DNA of 64,000 nucleotides from Pseudomonadota bacterium (GTDB taxonomy: Bacteria > Desulfobacterota > Desulfovibrionia > Desulfovibrionales > Desulfomicrobiaceae), in assembly GCA_018902545.1 (NCBI GenBank), contig JAHIQM010000020.1, positions 124,001 through 188,000 on the forward strand. The letters are read 5' to 3'. The notes under the pieces were generated by a model. The model made no database searches. It was not told where the DNA came from and saw nothing but the letters and a program-made list of their open reading frames with translations. Made by a program: the position numbers and the translations under genes. Within the stretch, counting starts at the first letter, position 1; every line of letters begins with the position of its first letter. Shown here one piece after another: positions 37,642 through 49,481 of this stretch.

Positions 37642-37709
37642 CAGAACCTAGCAAAGAGCGAAAGGCTTGTCTTGTTTTAGAGGGCGATTTGCAAAATTGG
37701 AAAATTGTT

Positions 37710-37737
37710 GTAGGGGCGAAAAATTTTTCGCCCCTAC
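37710..37737. repeat. Perfect 28-bp palindrome between trpA and glnA
   Basis: Half site GTAGGGGCGAAAAA followed directly by its exact complement. Such GTAGGGGCGA...TCGCCCCTAC palindromes recur as dispersed intergenic repeats in many bacterial genomes. It has no T run beyond its centre, so it is better viewed as a repeat than as the trp terminator. Confidence 0.65.
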
Positions 37738-37763
37738 GGATTGCGCGCATATCCACGGTGGGT

Positions 37764-38534
37764 TCATTCCCCGCACGCCGCCAAAAATTCATCCACGGCC
37801 CCCAGGCCGCTGGTGTCCATCAGATTGATGATGTGGCTACCGATTACGGCCACGTCGGCCAGACCATCGAGCATGCGTACATGCTCGGGGCTCGATATGC
37901 CGAAACCGGCGGCAATGGGCAGGCCGGCTTTTTTCTTCAGGTTTCGGACATAATCAACGCCCGTCTGATCAAGGCTGGCTCCGGCTCCGGTGATGCCGAC
38001 CTTGAGCGTTGTGTACAACAGGCCCGAGGCGCGACTGAGGATGGCGTCCAGGCGTGGGCTTTGCGTGTCCGGCGAAATGACCATGACCGGGTGCAGCCCG
38101 TGTTCGCGCGCGGCCCCGGCGTAGTCGCCATCGCTCTCATCCCAGGACAGGTCGGGCAGGATCAGGCCGCTGGCCCCGCTTTGCCTGGCCTTAGCCATGA
38201 ACGCGCCTTGCCCCATGGCGAAGGGAATGTTGGCGTAGGTCATGAACAGGAACGCTACTTCCGGCAGTTCCCTGGAAAGGGCCGCGCACAGCTCGAAGCA
38301 GTGACGGGGCGTGACGCCCTGATCCAGGGCCGCCTGATTGGCGCGCATGATGGTCGGGCCATCGGCCAGCGGATCGGTAAAGGGGATCTGGATTTCAATA
38401 AGCTTCACCCCCCGCAGGGCCATGAGCCGGATGAGATCTGCGTTCACGTCCAGATTCGGGTACCCGGCCACTACATGGGTCATGAGCTGGATGCCTGCCG
38501 CGTCTGCCAGCGCCCGGTCGATATTATTTTCCAT
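37764..38534 (-). CDS. trpA: Tryptophan synthase alpha chain
   Basis: 256 residues. Cleaves indole-3-glycerol phosphate and passes indole to TrpB. The catalytic Glu is in [17 protein letters not shown] and the Asp in [13 protein letters not shown]; the phosphate site is in [10 protein letters not shown] and [12 protein letters not shown]. The usual GVTG loop reads GITGAGA. Last gene of the aromatic operon, overlapping trpB by 11 bases. Confidence 0.94.
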
Positions 38535-39762
38535 GACGCACCTCGTTTTCCAAAAAAGCGATCCAGTTTTCGCGGTCCAGTTCCATGGCCGTGATGAAGA
38601 TGTCCTTGTCTCCGCGCCCGGAGATGTTGACGATCATGATCTCGTCCTTGGGCAGTGTCGGCGCCAGCTCGATGGCTCTGGCCACGGCGTGGGAGGATTC
38701 AAGGGCCGGGATGATCCCCTCCAACCGCGTCATGCGTTTGAAGGCGTCCAGGGCTTTCACGTCGGTGATGGGCGAAAATTCCACGATATTCTGGTCATAA
38801 AGCCAGGCCAGTTCCGGCCCGACACCGGCGTAGTCAAGCCCGGCCGAGACCGAATGGGTGTTCTGCAGCTGTCCGCTTTCGTCCTGCAAAAAGTAACTCT
38901 TGTAGCCCTGCACGATGCCGATCTTGGGGCTGCCTCCGAAGCGGGCCGCATTGTCGCCGATCGCCGGTCCGCGTCCGCCCGCCTCTGCGCCGTGGAAGCG
39001 GATGCCCGGATCATTCAGGAAGGGATGAAACAGACCGATGGAATTGGAGCCGCCGCCCACGCAGGCCACCAGATGGCTTGGCAGGCGGCCTTCGCGTTCC
39101 ATGATCTGGGCGCGCGCTTCGCGGCCGATGACGGACTGGAAGTCGCGCACCATGACCGGGTAGGGGAATGGCCCCAGGGCCGAGCCCAGAATGTAGTGCG
39201 TGTTTTTTAAGTTCTGAATCCAGTATTTGAGGGTGGCGTTGACCGCGTCTTTGAGGGTTCTGGTGCCGTCGGTGACCGGGACGACTTCGGCTCCAAGGAG
39301 TTTCATGGCGTAGACGTTGGGATACTGGCGGCGCACGTCCACCTCGCCCATGAAGACCTTGCATTCAAGGCCAAACCGCGCGGCCACCGTGGCCGAGGCC
39401 AGGCCGTGCTGCCCCGCGCCCGTCTCGGCGATGACCTTGGTCTTGCCCAGCCGCTTGGCCAGCAGGGCCTGGCCGAGGGCGTTGTTGATCTTGTGCGCGC
39501 CGGTGTGCGCCAGCCCTTCGAGTTTCAGGTAGATTTTGCAGCCGCCCAGTTCTCGGGTCAGATTCTCGGCATAGTAGAGCGGCGTGGGACGGCCGCAGTA
39601 GTTTTGATACAGATCCGTCAGTTCGGCCGTGAACTCGGGATCGTCCTTGTATTTCAGGTAGCCCTGTTCGAGTTCCTCAAGGGCCGGAACAAGCATCTCC
39701 GGCACGTAGCGCCCCCCGTAAGGGCCGAAATGGCGCGGGAGCATGTCCGATATTCTGCTCAT
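38524..39762 (-). CDS. trpB: Tryptophan synthase beta chain
   Basis: 412 residues from the ATG at 39762, which overlaps the trpF stop. PLP enzyme that joins indole and serine. [12 protein letters not shown], the PLP Lys in [38 protein letters not shown] and the phosphate-binding [13 protein letters not shown] are all intact. It is a standard TrpB1 type. A much longer upstream extension is open but overlaps trpF and lacks family resemblance. Confidence 0.96.
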
Positions 39763-40373
39763 GATTTTCCTCGCAGTAGTTGTAAGGCGGTGCGTATTTT
39801 TTCGTGATCCTTGATCCCGGGGGCGCTTTCCACTCCGGAGTTGAGATCGAATCCGGCCGCGCCGGTGGTTTTCATGACCGTCAGATTGTGCGGCCCAAGG
39901 CCCCCGGCCAGATACCAGGGGTGGGGGCATTGCAGTTTTTGCAGGTCTTTGGGGGCGAGGCTCTTGCCGTGTCCGCCGCCGCTTGTGCCGCTGTCCAGCA
40001 GAATGGCCCGGCAGGCCGGAGCGAAGAGGAGCATGTCCGTGACCAGACGCTCCACCGTTGGATAACGCTCGGGCCACATGGTCTTGATGACGCGCTCAGG
40101 GCCAAGGGCAAGGCACTGCTCCACGGTGTGTCCGCCGTGAAGCTGGAGCAGATCGAGGCCCGCCCCGGCGGCAATGGCCTGGATTTCCTCCACGCCCTGG
40201 CGCACAAAGACTCCGGTCTTGAGGGCGCGGCTGGGCTTTTGGGCGCAGGCCCATTCCTGGGCGACGTTTCGGGGGCTCTCGGGATGAAAGATGAAACCCA
40301 GGAGATCGATGCCGAGCGCGTCGCAAAATTCGACATCCTCCGCCCTGGTCATGCCGCAGACCTTGATGATCAT
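39759..40373 (-). CDS. trpF: Phosphoribosylanthranilate isomerase
   Basis: 204 residues. Amadori rearrangement in the Trp pathway. Starts [20 protein letters not shown], with the catalytic Cys in KVCGM and the Asp in [16 protein letters not shown], and ends [12 protein letters not shown]...[16 protein letters not shown]. Free-standing rather than fused to TrpC. Overlaps both neighbours by four bases. Confidence 0.94.
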
Positions 40374-41143
40374 GACTGGCCTCCGGTAAGCGCGGCAAGG
40401 CCCTGACCTGGATCGCCGTGCTGCATGAGCGCCGTGCCGATGAGCAGCGCGTCCAGACCGGCGGCCTTGAGTTCCCTGACCTGCTCTGGCGTATTGATGC
40501 CGCTGGCCCCGATCCAGATTTCACCGGTCTGCTTGCGCCGCACCATGTCCAGGCAGCGGCCAAGGTCCGTGGTCAGCGTGTCCAGGTCGCGGTTGTTGAC
40601 CTGGATGATGGTGCTCCCGATCTCCTTGGCCCGGTCCAGATCGCGCTCATCGAAGACCTCAACCACCGGCTCAAGGCCGTTTGTCAGGCACAGGGCGTGC
40701 AGCTGGGCCAGTTCGTCAAGCTCATCGAACATGCGCACGATGAGCAGGATGGCCGAGGCAGCAGTGGCCATGGTCGCCTCCACCTGCAGGGGGTGGATGA
40801 TGAAATCTTTGCGTAGCAAGGGCAGCCCCAGCGGCGCGACCTCGGCCAAGAAGGAGAGGTCGCCCTTGAAATAGGTCGATTCCGTGAGAATCGAGAGGGC
40901 GCAGGCTCCGGCCTCTGCGTATCCCCGGCAGGCTTGCAGGGGCAGAACGTCCAGATTGATGTCGCCCCTGGACGGGGAGGCGCGCTTGTATTCGGCGATG
41001 ATCCCCGATGTCCCTGGCCGGGTCAGGGCCGCACCGAATTCCGGGCGCAGGCCGTCATGGGGAGCGTGCCTGTGTCCCGCGTCGCGCAGACGGATGAGCT
41101 CGTCGACTTCAGCTTGCTTGGCCCGGCGGAATTTCTCAAGCAT
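40370..41143 (-). CDS. trpC: Indole-3-glycerol phosphate synthase
   Basis: 257 residues. TIM-barrel enzyme. Recognisable are IIAEYKRASPSRGDI (catalytic Lys), LLRKDFIIHPLQVEATMA, the Asn motif IIQVNNRDLDTL and IGASGINTPEQV. Overlaps trpD by eight bases and trpF by four. Confidence 0.94.
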   Translation of the reverse strand: MLEKFRRAKQAEVDELIRLRDAGHRHAPHDGLRPEFGAALTRPGTSGIIAEYKRASPSRGDINLDVLPLQACRGYAEAGACALSILTESTYFKGDLSFLAEVAPLGLPLLRKDFIIHPLQVEATMATAASAILLIVRMFDELDELAQLHALCLTNGLEPVVEVFDERDLDRAKEIGSTIIQVNNRDLDTLTTDLGRCLDMVRRKQTGEIWIGASGINTPEQVRELKAAGLDALLIGTALMQHGDPGQGLAALTGGQS

Positions 41144-42137
41144 GGAGCGCTCCGCTCAGGAGCCCTTGCTCCACTTTAGCCTTGGCCATCTCCATGGCCA
41201 GTTCCAGCGACAGATCGTCCTCCAGCAGAAAAAGGGCCACGCCCAGGTTCAGGGTGACCATGTCTTTAAGGGATTTTGGTCCCTGTCCGGCCAGGACCTG
41301 GCGCTGGAGTTTCAGGGCCTCTTCCTTGCTGTCGCAGGCCAGATCTCTGGGGATGCAGGTCGTGAGGCCAAAATCCGCCGGGTCGATGACCGCCTCGCGG
41401 ATTTTGCCGTGCTCAACGAAGATGACCTGGCCAGGACCACAGGGGGTTAGCTCGTCGAATCCGCCTGCGCCATGCAAGATGGCCGCGCGTTCAAGGCCTT
41501 TTCTGGCCGCCAGCACCTGGGCGATCATGGGCGCGAAGCGAAAATCCGGCACGCCGAGGATTTGGTGCGTGGGCAAGGCCGGATTCAAAAGCGGGCCCAT
41601 GAGGTTGAAGATGGTGCGCACGCCCAGCTGCTGCCGCACCGGGCCGACATGCTTGAAGGCCGGATGAAAATGCGGGGCGAAGAGGAAGACGAAGTTGCGC
41701 TTGGCCAGCTCCGCCCGCGCTTCCTCGGGTTCCGTGACCAGGGGGTAGCCCAGATCCTCGACCACATCGGCGCTGCCGCATTTGCTTGATACGGCGCGGT
41801 TGCCGTGCTTGACGACCTGATAGCCCATGTCGGCCAGGAAAAAGGACACGGCTGTTGAGCAATTGAAGCTCTGTTGGCCGTCTCCGCCCGTGCCGCAGGT
41901 GTCGATGCGCTTGCCCGAGAGCCCGGGGATGAGCCGGGCCTGGCCAAGTGCCGCATCCACCGCAGCCGAGAGCTCGGCGGCGGTTTCGCCCTTGGCCCGC
42001 AGGCCCATCAGAAAGGCGCCGGCCTGCACCGGGGAGACCGCGCCGGTCAGCAGAAGGTCGAAAGCCTCCTTGGCCTGGACGCCGGAAAGATCAGCGCCGG
42101 TGGCCAGATATTCAAGAATATGGCTGATGGTGTTCAT
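41136..42137 (-). CDS. trpD: Anthranilate phosphoribosyltransferase
   Basis: 333 residues. Transfers the phosphoribosyl group to anthranilate. The PRPP site is in DTCGTGGDGQQSFNCSTAVSF (DTCGTGGDG then NCSTAVSF), with VKHGNRAVSSKCGSAD and IFNLMGPLLNPA following. It begins three bases after trpG and is not fused to it. Confidence 0.95.
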   Translation of the reverse strand: MNTISHILEYLATGADLSGVQAKEAFDLLLTGAVSPVQAGAFLMGLRAKGETAAELSAAVDAALGQARLIPGLSGKRIDTCGTGGDGQQSFNCSTAVSFFLADMGYQVVKHGNRAVSSKCGSADVVEDLGYPLVTEPEEARAELAKRNFVFLFAPHFHPAFKHVGPVRQQLGVRTIFNLMGPLLNPALPTHQILGVPDFRFAPMIAQVLAARKGLERAAILHGAGGFDELTPCGPGQVIFVEHGKIREAVIDPADFGLTTCIPRDLACDSKEEALKLQRQVLAGQGPKSLKDMVTLNLGVALFLLEDDLSLELAMEMAKAKVEQGLLSGALHA

Positions 42138-42140
42138 GGC

Positions 42141-42722
42141 TTACTCCACGCGGATGTTGCACATTTTCAGGAAGTTATTGAGGAGCTTCGGCCCTTCCGG
42201 CGTGAGCACGGATTCAGGATGGAACTGCACGCCGACCCAGGGGCGGTCCTTGAAGGCCAGGGCCATGACCTCATTGTCTTCGGTGCGGGCGGTGACGGTG
42301 AAAGGCAGGTCCCCCTCTTCATGCACGGCCAGGGAATGGTAGCGACCGATCTGCATGGGGTTTGGCAGCCCGTCAAAAAGGCCTGTCCCGTCGTGCCGGA
42401 TGCTCGAGGTCTTGCCGTGCATGATCCGCTGGGCCGAGCCCACGGTCACGCCGCTGTGGTGCGACAGGGTCTGATGTCCGAGGCATACCCCCAGGACCGG
42501 CACGCTGCGTGGCACCAGATCCAGAAACTTTAAGCACAGCCCCGTGTTGCGCGGATGGCTCGGGCCGGGGGAGATGATCGCCCCCTGAAGGCGCGGATCC
42601 GTGGCCAGGGTCAGGATTTTCTGCTCGTTATTACGAAGCACCAAGGGGTTTGCGCCCAAAGATTGGAAAACCTGAACCAGGTTGAAAGTAAACGAGTCAA
42701 AGTTGTCTATCAGTAAAATCAT
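42141..42722 (-). CDS. trpG: Anthranilate synthase component II (glutamine amidotransferase)
   Basis: 193 residues. Supplies ammonia to TrpE. Class I amidotransferase triad: Cys in GVCLGHQTL, His and Glu in FHPESVLT. Starts MILLIDNFDSFTFNLVQ. The start lies 26 bases inside trpE and has a GGAGG ribosome site. Confidence 0.95.
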   Translation of the reverse strand: MILLIDNFDSFTFNLVQVFQSLGANPLVLRNNEQKILTLATDPRLQGAIISPGPSHPRNTGLCLKFLDLVPRSVPVLGVCLGHQTLSHHSGVTVGSAQRIMHGKTSSIRHDGTGLFDGLPNPMQIGRYHSLAVHEEGDLPFTVTARTEDNEVMALAFKDRPWVGVQFHPESVLTPEGPKLLNNFLKMCNIRVE

Positions 42723-44109
42723 CTCCGCCTCCGGTGCTGGTGATGGCCTTTAAAATCGCTCTGGCCTTGTTGTGACACTCCTGCCATTCCTTTTCGGGGT
42801 CCGAATCAAAGACCAGTCCCGCGCCCGCCTGCCAGTTGATCTGGCCGTTTTCCACCCACAGGGAGCGGATGGTGATGCCGGTATCAAGGTTGACCTGTCC
42901 CTGGTCCAGGCCGATCCAGCCGATGCCGCCGGCATAGGGGCCGCGATCGAGCTTTTCCTCTTCCGCGATGATCTGCATGGCCCTGATCTTGGGCGCCCCG
43001 GAGACAGTCCCGGCCGGGAATCCGGCCTTCAGGACGTCGATGGCGTCAAGGCCCTCGGCCAGGTGCGCCGAGAGGTAGGAGGTCAGGTGCATGACATGGG
43101 AAAAACGTTCGACCTGCATGTATTTGTCGACGTGTACGGTGCCGGGGGCGGCGATGCGCCCGAGGTCGTTGCGGCCCAGGTCCACGAGCATGACGTGTTC
43201 GGCCCGCTCCTTTTCATCGCCCAGCAGTTCCTCGGCCAGGGCCTGATCCTCGGCCTCGGTGTGTCCGCGCACGCGGGTTCCGGCTATCGGGCGCAATTGC
43301 AAGAGGCCGTCCTCGCAGCGGATGAGCAGTTCCGGAGATGAACCCATGATGGTCAGCTCTCCAAAGGACATGAAGAAGGTGTAAGGGGACGGGTTGATCT
43401 GGCGCAGCCTTCTGTAAAGCTCGAAGGCGGAGCCGGAAAACGAGGCCGAGAAGCGGGTCGAGAGGACGATCTGGATGGCTTCGCCCTGGGTGATCAGGTC
43501 CTTTGCCCGGCCCACCCGGCGCAGGAATTCATCCTGGTTCGGAGTGGTGGTGATGGCTCCGACGACCGGCGGGGCCGGAGTGCTCGGCCGCTGGCAGCCG
43601 TTCAGATTCGTCGAGGAATCCAGCGTCAGATAGCAGCAGCGGTGGTGCAGATGGTCGAAAAGGATGACCTTGCCCGGCAGGACCATGATGGAGCGCGCTC
43701 CCTCGGGGGGCAGCTTGTCGGCCAGGGCTGGCTCGAATATGCCGCCCATGTTGTAGGCCATGTAGCCGCACACGCTTCTGGTCACCGCCGGAAGTGGGCC
43801 CAGATTTTCGGGTCCGGTGACGGTCAGTTCGGCCAGGCACGCGCGCAGCCCGGACACGTAATCCTGGCCGCTGAATTCTTTGAGGCCGTGCAGGCGCGGG
43901 TCATAGCTCTGCACGTCGAGTTTGCCGCCGGCGCAGGACAGGATCAGACGAAAATCCCAGCCGATGAGGCTGTACCGGCCCAGCCGCCCGTCAACTTCGG
44001 TGCTCTCAAGGAGAAACCCCTGTTTTTCGCGCACCAGCGTCAGGTACAGAGAGATGGGCGTCTGTGTGTCCGCCGGGAGCCAGGTCCCCTGTTGGGGTAG
44101 GGTGATCAT
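42697..44109 (-). CDS. trpE: Anthranilate synthase component I
   Basis: 470 residues. Converts chorismate to anthranilate. The feedback site LLES is present near residue 33 (GFLLESTEVDGRLGRYS), so inhibition by Trp is expected. The catalytic part has EAIQIVLSTRFSASF, PELLIRCEDGLLQLRPIAGTR, MLVDLGRNDLGRIA and GTVSGAPKIRAMQII. GGAG lies six bases before the ATG. It is the first trp gene and lies 33 bases after an intrinsic terminator, too close for an independent promoter, which is part of the case for an attenuator here. Confidence 0.96.
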   Translation of the reverse strand: MITLPQQGTWLPADTQTPISLYLTLVREKQGFLLESTEVDGRLGRYSLIGWDFRLILSCAGGKLDVQSYDPRLHGLKEFSGQDYVSGLRACLAELTVTGPENLGPLPAVTRSVCGYMAYNMGGIFEPALADKLPPEGARSIMVLPGKVILFDHLHHRCCYLTLDSSTNLNGCQRPSTPAPPVVGAITTTPNQDEFLRRVGRAKDLITQGEAIQIVLSTRFSASFSGSAFELYRRLRQINPSPYTFFMSFGELTIMGSSPELLIRCEDGLLQLRPIAGTRVRGHTEAEDQALAEELLGDEKERAEHVMLVDLGRNDLGRIAAPGTVHVDKYMQVERFSHVMHLTSYLSAHLAEGLDAIDVLKAGFPAGTVSGAPKIRAMQIIAEEEKLDRGPYAGGIGWIGLDQGQVNLDTGITIRSLWVENGQINWQAGAGLVFDSDPEKEWQECHNKARAILKAITSTGGGDDFTDRQL

Positions 44110-44173: not shown

Positions 44174-44259
44174 CTAATGCCTTTTATGCCTGAACTAACG
44201 GCACTGCGTTGCCGTCAGGAAGCGGGTCCCCCTGCGTCATGCTGCTTGCGCCACCACCA
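44160..44259 (-). promoter_or_regulatory. Putative Trp attenuator formed by the 3' end of tyrA
   Basis: Three consecutive Trp codons (44259-44251) lie 11 codons before the tyrA stop. The last 15 coding bases, GGGGGACCCGCTTCC (44232-44218), can pair with GAAGCCGGATCCTCC (44174-44160), which includes the whole 5' arm of the terminator: about 13 pairs with one mismatch and one bulge. A ribosome stalled at the Trp codons would leave the first segment free to form this antiterminator; a ribosome reaching the stop codon would cover it and let the terminator form. A separate hairpin (CCTGA/TCAGG and CGGCA/TGCCG, 44188-44219) lies between. Inference from complementarity, not demonstrated. Confidence 0.6.
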
Positions 44260-44994
44260 AAGAGCCTTCTGGCTGAGCAGTTCCAGATCGCCGCCGGCGG
44301 CGACGTTCAGGTATGAACGGAACATGCGCACGGCCTCAAGACTGTGCGGATTTGCTTCGAACATGGTGGAGAAGAGGGGAGCGTCCTCGGTGATCATTTT
44401 CGTGGCCGCTTCAACGCGTCGTCCGAACGAGGGCGTGAAGAAACGCTCGATTCCGTTTTCCAGAGGGGAAGCACAGAGGTAAGCGACGGTGGTCACGAAG
44501 TTGAGTCCTTGGATGTAGGCCATGGCTTGGTCATGCTCATCGGCCGTTGTGATGAATGGGGAGAATCCCAGTGCGCGGAAGCAGTCTGATAGATTATCGC
44601 TTGCCGCTTGGTCACGTCCGAGAGTTACGGCAATACGCAACTCCGCGTCAAGTGTCTGGGGGCCGAAAAGTGGATGCGTGCCGACGACAGGCGTGGTGGT
44701 CAGCGCCAGCATCTCGCGCAGGGGTTGGACCTTGACCGAGCAGATGTCGGCCAGGATGCAGTCCTGCGTCAGATGCGGCGCTAGCGCCTGAGTGACGTCT
44801 TTCACTGCCGTGATAGGTACGCACAGTAAGACCAGGGCTGCTTTGCGCACGGCCTCGGGCAGGGCGGTCAGGTCCAGCGGGTGGTCGAATTCCGTCACGG
44901 GATTGCCTGCCTCGCGAAAGCTCCGCACGAACCGCGCCCCCATCTGGCCCTTGGCGCCGATGACCACGATGGCCGATGTCTGGCTAAGACTCAT
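44215..44994 (-). CDS. tyrA: Prephenate dehydrogenase family protein
   Basis: 259 residues from the ATG at 44994, which has GGGAG six bases upstream; the in-frame TTG at 45018 is weaker. NAD(P)-binding N-terminus AIVVIGAKGQMGARFVRSF, then the conserved VLLCVPITAVKDV, ILADICSVKVQPL and VGTHPLFGPQ. It leads to Tyr from prephenate. It is short: neither a chorismate mutase nor an ACT domain is fused, so allosteric control by Tyr is not obvious. The C-terminus contains ALWWWRKQHD; the three Trp codons are also part of a likely attenuator for trpE. Overlaps aroA by 11 bases. Confidence 0.88.
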   Translation of the reverse strand: MSLSQTSAIVVIGAKGQMGARFVRSFREAGNPVTEFDHPLDLTALPEAVRKAALVLLCVPITAVKDVTQALAPHLTQDCILADICSVKVQPLREMLALTTTPVVGTHPLFGPQTLDAELRIAVTLGRDQAASDNLSDCFRALGFSPFITTADEHDQAMAYIQGLNFVTTVAYLCASPLENGIERFFTPSFGRRVEAATKMITEDAPLFSTMFEANPHSLEAVRMFRSYLNVAAGGDLELLSQKALWWWRKQHDAGGPAS

Positions 44995-46330
44995 GCGCTG
45001 CTCCCAGGCCGTTGCCAAGACGGATCAGGCTCCAGACGTCCCAAAACCCTGGAAAGGATTTGGCCACACAGGCGGGGTTGTCGAGATTTACGTGTATGCC
45101 CCCCAGTTCCAGCAGGGAAAAGCTCATGGCCATGCGGTGGTCGCCGTAAGTGCACATTTCTATGCTGCGCGGCAAGAGCCCGCCATTGCCGCGTATGATC
45201 ATGCCATCGGGCCTTGCCTCGATATTCACCCCGGCCTTGGACAACTCCGTGACCGGCCCCTGGATGCGGTCGCATTCCTTCAGGGCCAGGTGCGCGGCTC
45301 CGGAAATGACCGTCTCGCCAGAGGCGAAGGCGGCCATGGCCGCCACCGTGGGTACGATATCCGGGCAGGCGTTCATGTCGACCTGCGTGCCGCGCAGCGC
45401 GGACGGGAAAACCGTGACTGAGTCATCGGTCCATTCGATGCGCGCTCCCATGCGGGTCAGGATCTCAAGCATGAAACGGTCGCCCTGGGCCGAGGACCGG
45501 TTCAACCCGGAAATGCGCACCGGTGCGGCGCCGACGGCCCCGGCCGCCAGAAAGTAGGAGGCATTGGACCAGTCCCCCTCCACGCGCATGGCCCCGGCGC
45601 GGTAGGACGCCGGATGGACGATGAGGCGGATGTCCGTGGGGGGAAGACCCGCTGCCTCGGCGTGGGTGCAGGACTGCCAATCGTCAAGGATTCTGCGCTC
45701 CAGGATCACGGGCACGCCGAAGCGGGCCATGGTGTCGAGCGTCAGGGCGACATAGGGCCAGGAGGCCACGGACTTGCCGATCAGCCGGATGGTCGTCGTC
45801 CCGGTCGCCAGCGGCGCGGCCAGGAGTAGGCCCGAGAGGTACTGGCTGCTCTGTTCCAGATTGATGGTCACTTCGCCGCCGGAAAGGCCCGGACTGGACA
45901 TGACCAGGGGCGGGTAGCCGTTCTTTTCTTCGAAGGTGACGCGCACCCCCTGCTGCGTAAGGGCGTCGGTCAGGTGCGAGACGGGCCGGTCGTGCATGCG
46001 TCCTTCGCCGAAAATGCGGTAAATGCCGGGGATGGCCGTGACCACGGCGGCCATGAGCCGACAGGTGGTGCCGGACTCGCCGACGTTCATGGCGACGGGC
46101 TCGGATGCCTCTGCCCGCGTCGTCCCGCCGATGCCGTGCACAAAGAGCTTGCCTTCACGGGGCTCGATCGTCGCGCCGAGAAGGCGCAGGCATTGGGCCG
46201 TACGGGTCAGGTCCTGGCTGTCGAGCACGCCTTCGAGGAGCGACTCGCCTTCGGCCAGGGCCGCGCAGATGAGCGCCCGGTGCGACAGGGATTTGGATGA
46301 AGGCGCGGTGATGTCGATGGCGGGTTTCAT
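44984..46330 (-). CDS. aroA: 3-phosphoshikimate 1-carboxyvinyltransferase (EPSP synthase)
   Basis: 448 residues. Sixth step of the shikimate pathway. PSSKSLSHRALICAALAEG at the N-terminus, GESGTTCRLMAAVV (the usual GNAGT loop replaced by GESGT), and LALKECDRIQGPVTELSKAG near the C-terminus. The GESGT variant loop departs from the textbook class I motif and could affect glyphosate sensitivity (inference). Overlaps pheA by four bases. Confidence 0.93.
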   Translation of the reverse strand: MKPAIDITAPSSKSLSHRALICAALAEGESLLEGVLDSQDLTRTAQCLRLLGATIEPREGKLFVHGIGGTTRAEASEPVAMNVGESGTTCRLMAAVVTAIPGIYRIFGEGRMHDRPVSHLTDALTQQGVRVTFEEKNGYPPLVMSSPGLSGGEVTINLEQSSQYLSGLLLAAPLATGTTTIRLIGKSVASWPYVALTLDTMARFGVPVILERRILDDWQSCTHAEAAGLPPTDIRLIVHPASYRAGAMRVEGDWSNASYFLAAGAVGAAPVRISGLNRSSAQGDRFMLEILTRMGARIEWTDDSVTVFPSALRGTQVDMNACPDIVPTVAAMAAFASGETVISGAAHLALKECDRIQGPVTELSKAGVNIEARPDGMIIRGNGGLLPRSIEMCTYGDHRMAMSFSLLELGGIHVNLDNPACVAKSFPGFWDVWSLIRLGNGLGAAHES

Positions 46331-47445
46331 GCCTGCTCCTGGACCATGCCCGCGCCGTAGAGGTGCGGACCCGTAGGATAGCTGCCGAGCACGCGCATGG
46401 TGTGGCAGAGGCTGGTCAGGTTGTTCATGGTGTTTTCATACTGTTCCTGGGACAGATCGCACTCCACGTCCATGAAGAAGACGTATTTCCATTTTTCGCC
46501 CTTGAGCGGCCGCGACTCCAGCTTGGTCAGGTTGAGCCCCTGGTCGGCCAGCAGGTTCAGGATGGCGGCCAGGGCGCCGGGTCGGTCCGGTGTGGTGAAC
46601 AGGAGCGAGGTCTTGTCGCGGCTGCTGCCGACCGTCGGCGTGGGCCCGATGACCAGAAAGCGCGTCCAGTTGTCGGGCAGATCCTGGATGTCGAGGGCCA
46701 CGGCCTTGAGGCCATAGCGCTCCACCAGACGCGGATGCCCGATGGCGGCGAAGCCGTCGCCCTCGCGTTCGGCCTGGGCCGCCGCTGCTGCGGTGCTCTC
46801 GGTGGGGACGACGACGGCCTGGGGCACGTTGGTGCGCAGCCAGCCCGAGCATTGAGCCAGGGCCTGGGGGTGGGAATATACCGTGCGTACCGAGGCCAGA
46901 TCGGCGTTTGTGGCCAGCAGCGCGTGGCTTATGCGGCTGAAAAGTTCGGCATGGATATAGACATTGTATTGCAGGAAGAGGTCCAGGCTCTGGCCGACGC
47001 TGCCCTGCAGGGAGTTTTCGAGCGGGATCACGCCAAGGTCGGCCTTGCGCGAGGCCACGGTCAAAAAGACGTCGTGCAGGGTCGGGCAGGGGGTGAAGTC
47101 CATGGAGCGGCCAAGGTACTCAAGGCCCGCCAGGTGCGTGAAGGTCCCCTCGGGGCCGAGATAGGCCACGGCCTGAGGTTGCTGCAGACGGCGCGAGGAA
47201 GACAGGATCTCGCGGTAGATGGCGCGCAGATGATCCTCGGGCAGGATGCCGGGGCTCAAGGCGTTCAGGCGGCTTAAGACTTCCTTTTCGCGAAAGGGCT
47301 TGAAGACGATGTCCAGGGAATCGGACTTGAGTTGCCCCACCTCGCGGCTTAAGGAGGCGCGCTTGTTGAGCAGTCCCAGAAGCTGTTCATCCAGACTGTC
47401 GATCTGGGTCCGAATCTCGGTCAGGCGCTGCGTGGTCGCACTCAT
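46327..47445 (-). CDS. pheA: Chorismate mutase-prephenate dehydratase (P-protein)
   Basis: 372 residues. An AroQ-type chorismate mutase (residues 1-90: IRTQIDSLDEQLLGLLNKRA) is fused to prephenate dehydratase (VAYLGPEGTFTHLAGLEYLG; GVIPLENSLQGSVGQSLDLF) and an ACT domain (RPGALAAILNLLADQGLNL, then LESRPLKGEKWKYVFFMD), where Phe should bind and inhibit. The fused mutase can also supply prephenate to the mutase-less TyrA. Overlaps its neighbours by four bases on each side. Confidence 0.95.
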   Translation of the reverse strand: MSATTQRLTEIRTQIDSLDEQLLGLLNKRASLSREVGQLKSDSLDIVFKPFREKEVLSRLNALSPGILPEDHLRAIYREILSSSRRLQQPQAVAYLGPEGTFTHLAGLEYLGRSMDFTPCPTLHDVFLTVASRKADLGVIPLENSLQGSVGQSLDLFLQYNVYIHAELFSRISHALLATNADLASVRTVYSHPQALAQCSGWLRTNVPQAVVVPTESTAAAAAQAEREGDGFAAIGHPRLVERYGLKAVALDIQDLPDNWTRFLVIGPTPTVGSSRDKTSLLFTTPDRPGALAAILNLLADQGLNLTKLESRPLKGEKWKYVFFMDVECDLSQEQYENTMNNLTSLCHTMRVLGSYPTGPHLYGAGMVQEQA

Positions 47446-48410
47446 TCCTTGATCTCCTCGGTGATGCGCATGCCGAAATGCCGACCCGCCTGATCCGTGC
47501 GGCAGAGCACCTTGTCACCGATCTTGAGGTCGACCACGCTGACCGGGCGGCCGTCGGTTCGAACCATGCGGATGGTTTCGGCGTTCTGCAGGAAGAGGGT
47601 CCCCTTTTTCCCGCCCGCCTCGGCCTCGATGAGCAGCATGGGCCGGATTTCGACCTTGCAGCGCCCGACCGTGGCCAGGGTGGTCGATCCGTCGGCGCCG
47701 ACAATGAGCACCTCTGTTCCGGTTTTCAGTTCATCGAGATACGTGGTCCGGTCCCCAGGCATGGCCGCGTAGGCGTGCACGGCCCCGGCGTTGATGCGGA
47801 AGGGGCGGGGGGCCACGTAGGGGTTGGATTCGGTCTCGGCGTTGATGAGGAATGTAAAAGCACTCGAATTGCCGACCAGCATTCCCTGGCCGGATTTCAA
47901 AAGACTCATGGTGTCCACGCAGACGCGGTGGCCGAGCCCGGCGGAGGTGACGGCGGTGACCGTCGCGGTTTCCAGTTCCATGGTTCCCTGGCTCAGTTTG
48001 AGTTCACGCACGATGGTCTTGAGCTCCGCGGCCGCCGCGGGCAGGACGACTATTGTCTCAACCCCCCGTTCCAGGATGCCGGCGGCGAGGCGCGCCCGGT
48101 CCAGGCTGGCGGCTTCCACGGCCAGGCGGCCCGACTGGGCCAGGATGTTTTCCACGGGAATGATTTCCCAGCCTTCCCTCAGGATGACGTCCTTACCCTG
48201 GCCCAGGAGCCGCACGGCTTCTTCCTCGTCGGCCTTGGAGGACAAGAGGACATAGGGCTGGTCTTCGGCGGCCAGGACCGGGATCTTGCTGAGGGCCTGT
48301 ACCGAGGCGACATGTTCGCGTTCGACGATGACCGCGTCCACGCCGGACTCCAGGGCCAGGGTGATCTCCCCCTTGTCAAAGGGGACGCCGGAAAAGAGTA
48401 CTTTTTTCAT
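47442..48410 (-). CDS. 3-dehydroquinate synthase II (archaeal-type, AroB')
   Basis: 322 residues. NAD+-dependent enzyme that deaminates and cyclises ADTH to 3-dehydroquinate; unrelated to classical AroB. The C-terminal region matches the family: VCVDTMSLLKSGQGMLVGNSS, ESNPYVAPRPFRINAGAVHAY and GDRTTYLDELKTGTEVLIV. Known from methanogens and from Desulfovibrio, where it sits in the same operon. It lies nine bases after the ADTH synthase gene. Shikimate entry here therefore does not use DAHP (inference from the gene pair). Confidence 0.92.
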   Translation of the reverse strand: MKKVLFSGVPFDKGEITLALESGVDAVIVEREHVASVQALSKIPVLAAEDQPYVLLSSKADEEEAVRLLGQGKDVILREGWEIIPVENILAQSGRLAVEAASLDRARLAAGILERGVETIVVLPAAAAELKTIVRELKLSQGTMELETATVTAVTSAGLGHRVCVDTMSLLKSGQGMLVGNSSAFTFLINAETESNPYVAPRPFRINAGAVHAYAAMPGDRTTYLDELKTGTEVLIVGADGSTTLATVGRCKVEIRPMLLIEAEAGGKKGTLFLQNAETIRMVRTDGRPVSVVDLKIGDKVLCRTDQAGRHFGMRITEEIKE

Positions 48411-48419
48411 GACACGGAC

Positions 48420-49226
48420 CTAGAGTTTGGGTTCTTCGAGTAGCGCCAGGGCCTGCTCGACGGAGTAGTCCATGTGTACCACGGCATGCAGGGCTTGCAC
48501 CAGACGGGTCGGGTCTTCGGCCTGGAAGATGTTGCGTCCCATGGACAGGCCTGCGCCGCCGGCAGCGACGGAGTCGTGAGCCATCTGGATGATGTCGCGC
48601 GGGGATTCCATGCGCGGGCCACCGGCAATGACGATGGGGATGCAGCAGCCTTCGGTCACCCTGGAAAAGGACTCGGGATCGCCGGTGTACACGACCTTGA
48701 TCACGTCGGCGCCAAGCTCTTCGGCCAGACGAGCGCAGTGCGCCACGGTGGCTGGATCCCATTCGGATTTGATCTTGGGGCCGCGGGCGTAAACCATGGC
48801 CAGAAGCGGCATGCCCCATTCGGCGCACTTGGAGGCGACCTGGCCCATGTCGCGCAGCATGTCGCGTTCGGACTCGTCACCGAGGTTCAGGTGAACGGAT
48901 ACGGCATCCGCGCCGAGCTTGATCCCGTCTTCCACCGTGCCGACCAGGATCTTGGCGTTGGGGAAAGGGGACAGCGTGGTGCTGGCCGAAAGATGGATGA
49001 TGAGACCCACGTCGCGGCCATGACCCCGGTGCGAGCAGCGCGGCAGGCCTTTGTGCATGAGCACCGCGTTGGCTCCGCCCTCGGCCACCTTGTTCACTGT
49101 GGAGCGCAGGTCCACCAGTCCCTGGATGGGGCCGACGGTGGTCCCATGGTCCAGGGGCACGATGATGCTGCGGCCCGTGTTGCGGTTGAAGATTCGCTCC
49201 AGTCGTACGCTTTTTCCCATGTTCAT
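48420..49226 (-). CDS. ADTH synthase (2-amino-3,7-dideoxy-D-threo-hept-6-ulosonate synthase), class I aldolase family
   Basis: 268 residues. Fructose-bisphosphate aldolase-like barrel that makes ADTH from aspartate semialdehyde and a C6 sugar-derived donor, the first step of the alternative route to dehydroquinate. Visible: [46 protein letters not shown], the Schiff-base Lys region [11 protein letters not shown], and IVIAGGPRM. It is the first structural gene of the aromatic operon; GGAGG lies five bases before the ATG. The 190-base leader ahead of it holds an attenuator. Confidence 0.92.
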
Positions 49227-49269: not shown

Positions 49270-49303
49270 AAAAAAGGGCCGCCGGCGTATCGCCTGCGGC
49301 CCT
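49270..49303 (-). terminator. Intrinsic terminator in the leader of the aromatic operon (attenuator)
   Basis: On the minus strand AGGGCCGC (49303-49296) pairs with GCGGCCCT (49282-49275), with an inner GGCG/CGCC stem and ATA loop, followed by a run of six T counting the stem end. It lies between the leader peptide and the first gene, with no gene upstream to terminate other than the leader peptide. Confidence 0.85.
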
Positions 49304-49358
49304 AAGGTTGGTTTGCTTCTGTCAAAAAAGGCTAAAGCAGTCCCCTCAGACCACAGGC
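49292..49358 (-). promoter_or_regulatory. Antiterminator segments of the aromatic attenuator
   Basis: GCCTGTGGTCT (49358-49348), inside leader codons 21-24, can pair without a break for 11 bases (three G-U) with AGGGCCGCAGGC (49303-49292), the 5' arm of the terminator. Competing with it, AGCAG (49364-49360) and CTGCT (49340-49336) can enclose the first segment in its own hairpin. This is the standard three-way switch of amino acid attenuators. Inferred by hand from complementarity. Confidence 0.6.
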
Positions 49359-49418
49359 TCTGCTAAAATAAAAGTACCAAAAAAAGTACAGGCTGTTATT
49401 GAGGGAGATGTTTGTCAT
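49332..49418 (-). CDS. Aromatic-rich leader peptide (28 residues)
   Basis: ATG at 49418 opens 28 codons ending with TAG at 49334-49332. Codons 11-18 read YFFWYFYF: three Phe-rich clusters with three Tyr and one Trp and no interruption. Such a run is very unlikely by chance and is the signature of a leader peptide whose translation senses charged tRNA-Phe, -Tyr and -Trp. It lies directly ahead of a terminator and of the operon that makes all three amino acids. The ribosome site is weak (CAGG about 10 bases upstream) and a perfect -35 box lies 35 bases upstream, so the 5' end may be very short. No protein function is expected. Confidence 0.8.
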   Translation of the reverse strand: MTNISLNNSLYFFWYFYFSRACGLRGLL

Positions 49419-49429
49419 AACGATTGCCT

Positions 49430-49458
49430 GACTACTCAGTTTGCCGGGAGGCTGTCAA
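49430..49458 (-). promoter_or_regulatory. Candidate promoter of the aromatic operon
   Basis: Perfect -35 box TTGACA (49458-49453) with GTAGTC/TAGTCA about 17-18 bases downstream as a poor -10. Transcription would start only a few bases before the leader peptide ATG; a promoter further upstream (for example TAAATA near 49496-49501) cannot be excluded. Confidence 0.4.
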
Positions 49459-49466
49459 GAACTTTT

Positions 49467-49481
49467 ATGACCGACGGTCAT
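49467..49481. promoter_or_regulatory. Perfect 15-bp dyad upstream of the aromatic promoter
   Basis: ATGACCG-A-CGGTCAT, a perfect palindrome about one helical turn upstream of the TTGACA box. Dyads of the TGACCG-N-CGGTCA form are commonly bound by TetR-type regulators. The protein is not identifiable from this window. Confidence 0.45.

Follow-up and report, generated by a model that had tools for sequence, protein, structure and literature searches.

A leader peptide gene with a run of aromatic codons appears to gauge supply for a whole aromatic amino-acid operon in Desulfovibrionales

We identified a short leader peptide gene ahead of an aromatic amino-acid operon in a Desulfovibrionales genome, within a 64-kb stretch of DNA that was analysed as a whole (hereafter, the window). 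From its architecture, we infer that the gene gauges amino-acid supply and turns the whole operon on or off accordingly. We put the probability at roughly 0.92 that the element works as a ribosome-mediated transcription attenuator in which charged tRNA-Tyr, tRNA-Phe and tRNA-Trp are sensed as a pool. A reading made earlier from the sequence alone (the sequence-only reading) had arrived at the same type of attenuator, and both the conservation of the element and a codon content that follows the downstream genes support it. The leader comprises the following features:

49332-49418, minus strand: leader peptide ORF of 28 codons, MTNISLNNSLYFFWYFYFSRACGLRGLL followed by a stop, kept in relatives
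49365-49388, minus strand: control codons Tyr Phe Phe Trp Tyr Phe Tyr Phe, whose identities follow the downstream genes in relatives
49391-49408, minus strand: segment 1, UCUCCCUCAAUAACAGCC, which forms protector 1:2 by pairing with segment 2 plus the extension on its 3′ side
49348-49358, minus strand: segment 2, GCCUGUGGUCU, the 5′ half of the antiterminator, within the ORF
49292-49302, minus strand: segment 3, GGGCCGCAGGC, common to antiterminator and terminator
49270-49303, minus strand: intrinsic terminator 3:4 with a U6 tract, −24 kcal/mol by folding

The leader ORF contains eight aromatic codons in a row (TAC TTT TTT TGG TAC TTT TAT TTT; 3 Tyr, 4 Phe and 1 Trp). A search pattern in which seven Phe/Tyr codons surround a single Trp matched once in the 64-kb window and in 0 of 100 shuffles, and its 7-codon version matched once in the whole 3.7-Mb genome, with 0 matches for a reversed control pattern. 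The run is not due to chance, and the ORF translation together with these counts bears out the 28-codon ORF with eight consecutive aromatic codons described previously. A short leader ORF carrying a codon run for the product or products of the operon is the arrangement of trp-, phe- and his-type attenuators.

Between this ORF and the first gene lies a GC-rich hairpin, GGGCCGCAGGC-GATAC-GCCGGCGGCCC plus U6, which starts 28–29 nt past the leader stop codon and ends 43 nt ahead of the ATG at 49226. A simple terminator scan does not list it; the fold does show it, confirming the intrinsic terminator that the sequence-only reading had placed here. The same reading had paired an in-ORF segment, GCCTGTGGTCT (49358-49348), with the terminator 5′ arm (49302-49292), and the 11 unbroken pairs, three of them G-U, hold with a computed 2:3 duplex energy of −19.6 kcal/mol in the window. 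The segment 2–terminator pattern matched once in the window and never in shuffles. Antiterminator and terminator, computed from the shared 5′ arm, are mutually exclusive. When the bases covered by a ribosome stalled in the run were masked, computation gave an antiterminator of −31.8 kcal/mol before segment 4 is made; with the ribosome masked at the stop codon, the terminator alone remained, at −24 kcal/mol. Only 6 nt separate the last aromatic codon from segment 2, so a stall at that codon may partly mask segment 2.

The leader is followed by a 12-gene operon:

48420-49226, minus strand: 2-amino-3,7-dideoxy-D-threo-hept-6-ulosonate (ADTH) synthase (TIGR01949, 385 bits, cut-off 299)
47442-48410, minus strand: 3-dehydroquinate (DHQ) synthase II (NF002628, 590 bits, cut-off 508; PF01959)
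46327-47445, minus strand: pheA, chorismate mutase with prephenate dehydratase and ACT
44984-46330, minus strand: aroA (EPSP synthase)
44215-45018, minus strand: tyrA (prephenate dehydrogenase)
42697-44109, minus strand: trpE, from the ORF list and orthologues at the same operon position
39759-42722, minus strand: trpG, trpD, trpC and trpF, from the ORF list and the gene order in relatives
38524-39738, minus strand: trpB, from the ORF list and the gene order in relatives
about 37700-38520, minus strand: trpA, after trpB

The genes from ADTH synthase to tyrA are those previously assigned to the leader, but the operon does not end at tyrA, as had been supposed, and runs on through trpEGDCFBA. 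Attenuator control should extend over the whole trp operon, and the units involved probably form a regulon.

Given these features, we hypothesize that RNA polymerase starts just 5′ of the leader ORF, with a ribosome following on MTNISLNNSLYFFWYFYF... If any of the three tRNAs were poorly charged, the ribosome would stall in the aromatic run and cover or disrupt segment 1, leaving segment 2 (49358-49348) free to pair with segment 3 (49302-49292) while segment 4 has yet to be transcribed. No terminator would then form, and polymerase would read through ADTHS-DHQS2-pheA-aroA-tyrA-trpEGDCFBA. With all three tRNAs plentiful, the ribosome would reach UAG and mask segment 2, and the 3:4 terminator would release the polymerase; with no ribosome present, the 1:2 pairing could also sequester segment 2. 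Relatives would re-tune the same chassis through codon changes.

Sixty relatives were searched with ADTH synthase. Upstream of operon-type ADTH synthase genes, these relatives have an ORF with a Tyr/Phe/Trp-rich run, then the conserved segment GCCTGTGGTC, then the terminator GGGCCGCAGGC...GCCGGCGGCCC-U. The sequence-only reading would have been refuted by a lack of conservation in relatives; instead, the leader ORF, the terminator and the alternative pairing are all kept across the order. A covariance model (R1), run on 247 genomes of the order that were each at least 90% complete, found matches in 236 of them. Most ADTHS-like paralogues in the same genomes have no leader (L002, L044, L046-L048, L050, L052-L054), which provides an internal negative control. 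When 84,980 species genomes were scanned with a pattern, there were 76 matches, 43 of them with an aromatic ORF and a terminator and all of these in Desulfovibrionales-type genomes; the operon follows in 42 of the 43, and in the remaining one (L155) a contig end truncates a genuine leader. The 33 other matches have neither a terminator nor an aromatic ORF nor the operon, and were set aside as chance. Apparent stop codons inside ADTHS matches proved to be merely the natural stop.

An alignment of 54 leaders shows 95.5% of cells paired for the 2:3 helix, compared with 33–47% when the helix is slid by 1–3 columns, and 99.8% for the 3:4 terminator helix. Covarying stems had also been anticipated: a single compensatory change occurs in the 2:3 helix, where CG replaces UA in 4 sequences, and covariation is slight overall. 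Little is found in 2:3 and 3:4 because segment 3 is very conserved and serves two partners. On other leaders, an automated segment 2:3 test is crude where the cut of the aromatic run, or the end of the terminator, is wrongly placed. The previously proposed hairpin that hides segment 2 is supported family-wide: segment 1 pairs with its own segment 2 at −21.5 kcal/mol versus −18.3 kcal/mol with that of other species (Wilcoxon p = 2.3e-6 over 32 non-redundant leaders). Taken by itself, the window sequence shows weak sequestration, its 1:2 pairing being among the weaker ones, with 37% of shuffles as good.

The control codons follow the regulated pathway. Leaders contain a Trp codon in 73 of 75 cases in trp-containing genomes versus 0 of 8 in trp-less ones (Fisher 1e-9; 3e-7 when four fragmented-assembly exceptions are included), values inflated by phylogenetic non-independence, with at least six genera involved. 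The eight trp-less genomes are G005, G011, G131, G160, G200, G261, G275 and G276, the last with a weak trpE-like match alone; G201 was left out of this set because trpC is present. The exceptions with a Trp codon (G003, G016, G080, G156) are fragmented assemblies in which trpE/trpC are undetected or partial, while in G095 and G198 trp genes are present yet the aro leader lacks the codon. In the same-genus genomes G005 and G011, the operon ends at tyrA, with no full trpE and no trpC, and their leaders, MKSFVSTQNPRVFAYGYYQHGSCGPEALP and MRSSMFTQNSYVFVYDYYCRNSCGPEALP, have no Trp codon; every other leader of the genus has one. Detached trp operons, found in genera g12 and g3, have their own leader with WWW and a different terminator.

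We consider it likely that a single RNA attenuator chassis governs aromatic amino-acid metabolism across Desulfovibrionales, and probably in much of the phylum, with leader codons rewritten for each target. The main operon would have the pooled Tyr/Phe/Trp code, and first-step isozymes a code of Phe or of Tyr alone; an SSF symporter and a PaaK-like ligase would have Phe alone, and TRAP transporters and detached trp operons Trp. Together these units would form a regulon acting in cis on several targets. Within the ten densest codons, F/Y/W counts come to 211/150/63 in leaders of the main operon, 97/33/0 in those of lone ADTHS, 154/13/0 in those of SSF, 14/0/23 in those of detached trp and 2/0/13 in those of TRAP. 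Stand-alone ADTH synthase genes have Phe-only leaders (L296, L298, L301, L315 and others) or Tyr-only leaders (L303, L310, L311, L325, L058, L059). The codon content of the latter suggests a Tyr-specific first-step isozyme, a parallel to E. coli AroF/AroG/AroH in which specificity is here predicted to be set by attenuation. An SSF-family symporter (PF00474), which scores below the PanF and PutP cut-offs, forms a two-gene unit with the same attenuator core and mostly Phe-only leaders, located as follows:

Phe-only SSF symporter leaders: L245 (104-193 onward), L246-L249, L252-L254, L256-L259, L295, L297, L300, L304

From its codons, this symporter is predicted to be a Phe-linked transporter, and TRAP DctP receptor genes with Trp-rich leaders (L321, L330, L334) are predicted to take part in Trp- or indole-linked uptake. 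Phe-only leaders also precede a phenylacetate-CoA ligase-like (PaaK-like) gene with a paired-ACT protein neighbour (L299, L324, L331), which suggests Phe salvage from phenylacetate instead of catabolism. In other parts of the phylum the model gave weaker matches, among them pooled leaders, L345 VYYFWFYFY and L355 FFWFYF, before DAHP synthase-like genes, whose identity as conventional DAHP synthases is a reading of the translated sequence, and L354, ahead of an ADTHS-DHQS2-pheA cluster. L352 and L344, from a different family of the phylum, have a tandem pair of Tyr-rich leader ORFs before an acyl-CoA synthetase-like gene. G004 has a second leader copy, MNKIIPNHSSLYFFWCFYCNGSCGLGELL, directly 5′ of its tyrA-trp segment (L130, contig 73), its other copy heading ADTHS.

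These swaps also bear on whether the ORF encodes a small functional peptide, for example a membrane peptide, with the terminator separating its mRNA from the operon. The aromatic run is very hydrophobic and the peptide is similar within the order, as such a function would have it. Against this, the make-up of the peptide changes completely (YFW, F, Y, W) from one downstream gene to another over an unchanged RNA core, and the aromatic runs favour UUU (226:35), contrary to the codon preference of the operon itself (38:81). In L043 and L051, moreover, the conserved segment-2 bases are read in a different frame; it is therefore the RNA base sequence, and not the peptide, that is constrained there. 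We regard a functional peptide as highly improbable.

It is just as improbable, in our judgement, that the ORF is incidental to a constitutive terminator, a small RNA or a protein- or metabolite-binding attenuator such as a riboswitch or T-box. A strong terminator and a structured leader would suit these, but gene content is predicted by codon content, the computed ribosome masking accounts for the switch, and Rfam riboswitch and T-box models gave no match in the window or in 13 related loci. Nor does the element belong to Rfam Phe_leader (RF01859), which scored 20 bits over the full model against a gathering score of 55; the 13 related loci likewise gave no gathering-level match to it.

The promoter of the attenuator is marked by one conserved element:

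49453-49458, minus strand: −35 element TTGACA of the leader promoter, conserved in position; −10 degenerate

Among the 22 relatives listed, 21 have TTGACA at the same place 5′ of the leader ATG and the remaining one has TTGACG, a fixed position that would give an RNA of about 160 nt. A sigma-70 scan found no promoter at the leader because the −10 is degenerate, despite the conserved −35. A perfect palindrome, ATGACCGTCGGTCAT (49467-49481), lies 8 nt upstream of the −35 and occurs in most of the genus with a varying centre; L014 and L017 have a related GACC..GGTC site, and the palindrome is missing from two trp-less species (L015, L016) and from L012 and L067. It is a possible operator for a regulator. 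A DNA-binding repressor or activator at this site could even be the main control, with the attenuator secondary, as its place next to the −35 in most of the genus might suggest. We consider this unlikely, if a little less so than the two alternatives above, as other families and some species of the same genus lack the site, while the attenuator occurs almost everywhere.

Ribosome-mediated attenuation of the operon gives a specific model of how sulfate reducers may regulate the archaeal-type (ADTH) route to shikimate, and the loss or relocation of trp genes amounts to a natural experiment in which leader codons are rewritten. It also yields predictions for individual genes: a Phe-linked SSF symporter, a Trp-linked TRAP receptor, ADTH synthase isozymes specific for Phe and for Tyr, and a PaaK-like ligase that serves biosynthesis (salvage). 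If the chassis is indeed shared, leader codons could predict transporter and isozyme specificity.

The enterobacterial pheA, pheST, trp and his leaders likewise combine a short ORF with a cognate codon run, 1:2/2:3/3:4 logic and a terminator before biosynthetic genes; the Desulfovibrionales element differs in its predicted sensing of three amino acids in one run, in its sequence and in being order-wide. Leader-peptide attenuation and multivalent sensing are textbook mechanisms, exemplified by the ilvGMEDA leader with its Ile/Val/Leu attenuation. As in ilvGMEDA, a single leader would respond jointly to several products at the ends of a branched pathway; here the pathway is aromatic, and the leader codons are re-tuned in relatives for single amino acids. 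A putative attenuator ahead of the homologous D. vulgaris operon, aroA′-aroB′-pheA-aroF-tyrA-[trp], had been listed from the Merino database by 2005 (PMC1173090, Table 7) and is almost certainly the same attenuator; the table entry gives a predicted terminator/antiterminator alone, without leader peptide, codon logic or re-tuning. In Acholeplasma, uORFC-13-1 ahead of aroF is a candidate attenuator with a Phe-codon run (PMC8632094), also a uORF before the first shikimate enzyme, but in an unrelated lineage, with Phe codons and a conventional DAHP synthase. A literature search of partial coverage returned no description of a leader peptide, three-way code or re-tuning in this group, and, within that literature, the leader peptide, its three-amino-acid code, the order-wide conservation and the codon-swap re-tuning across target genes appear to be new.
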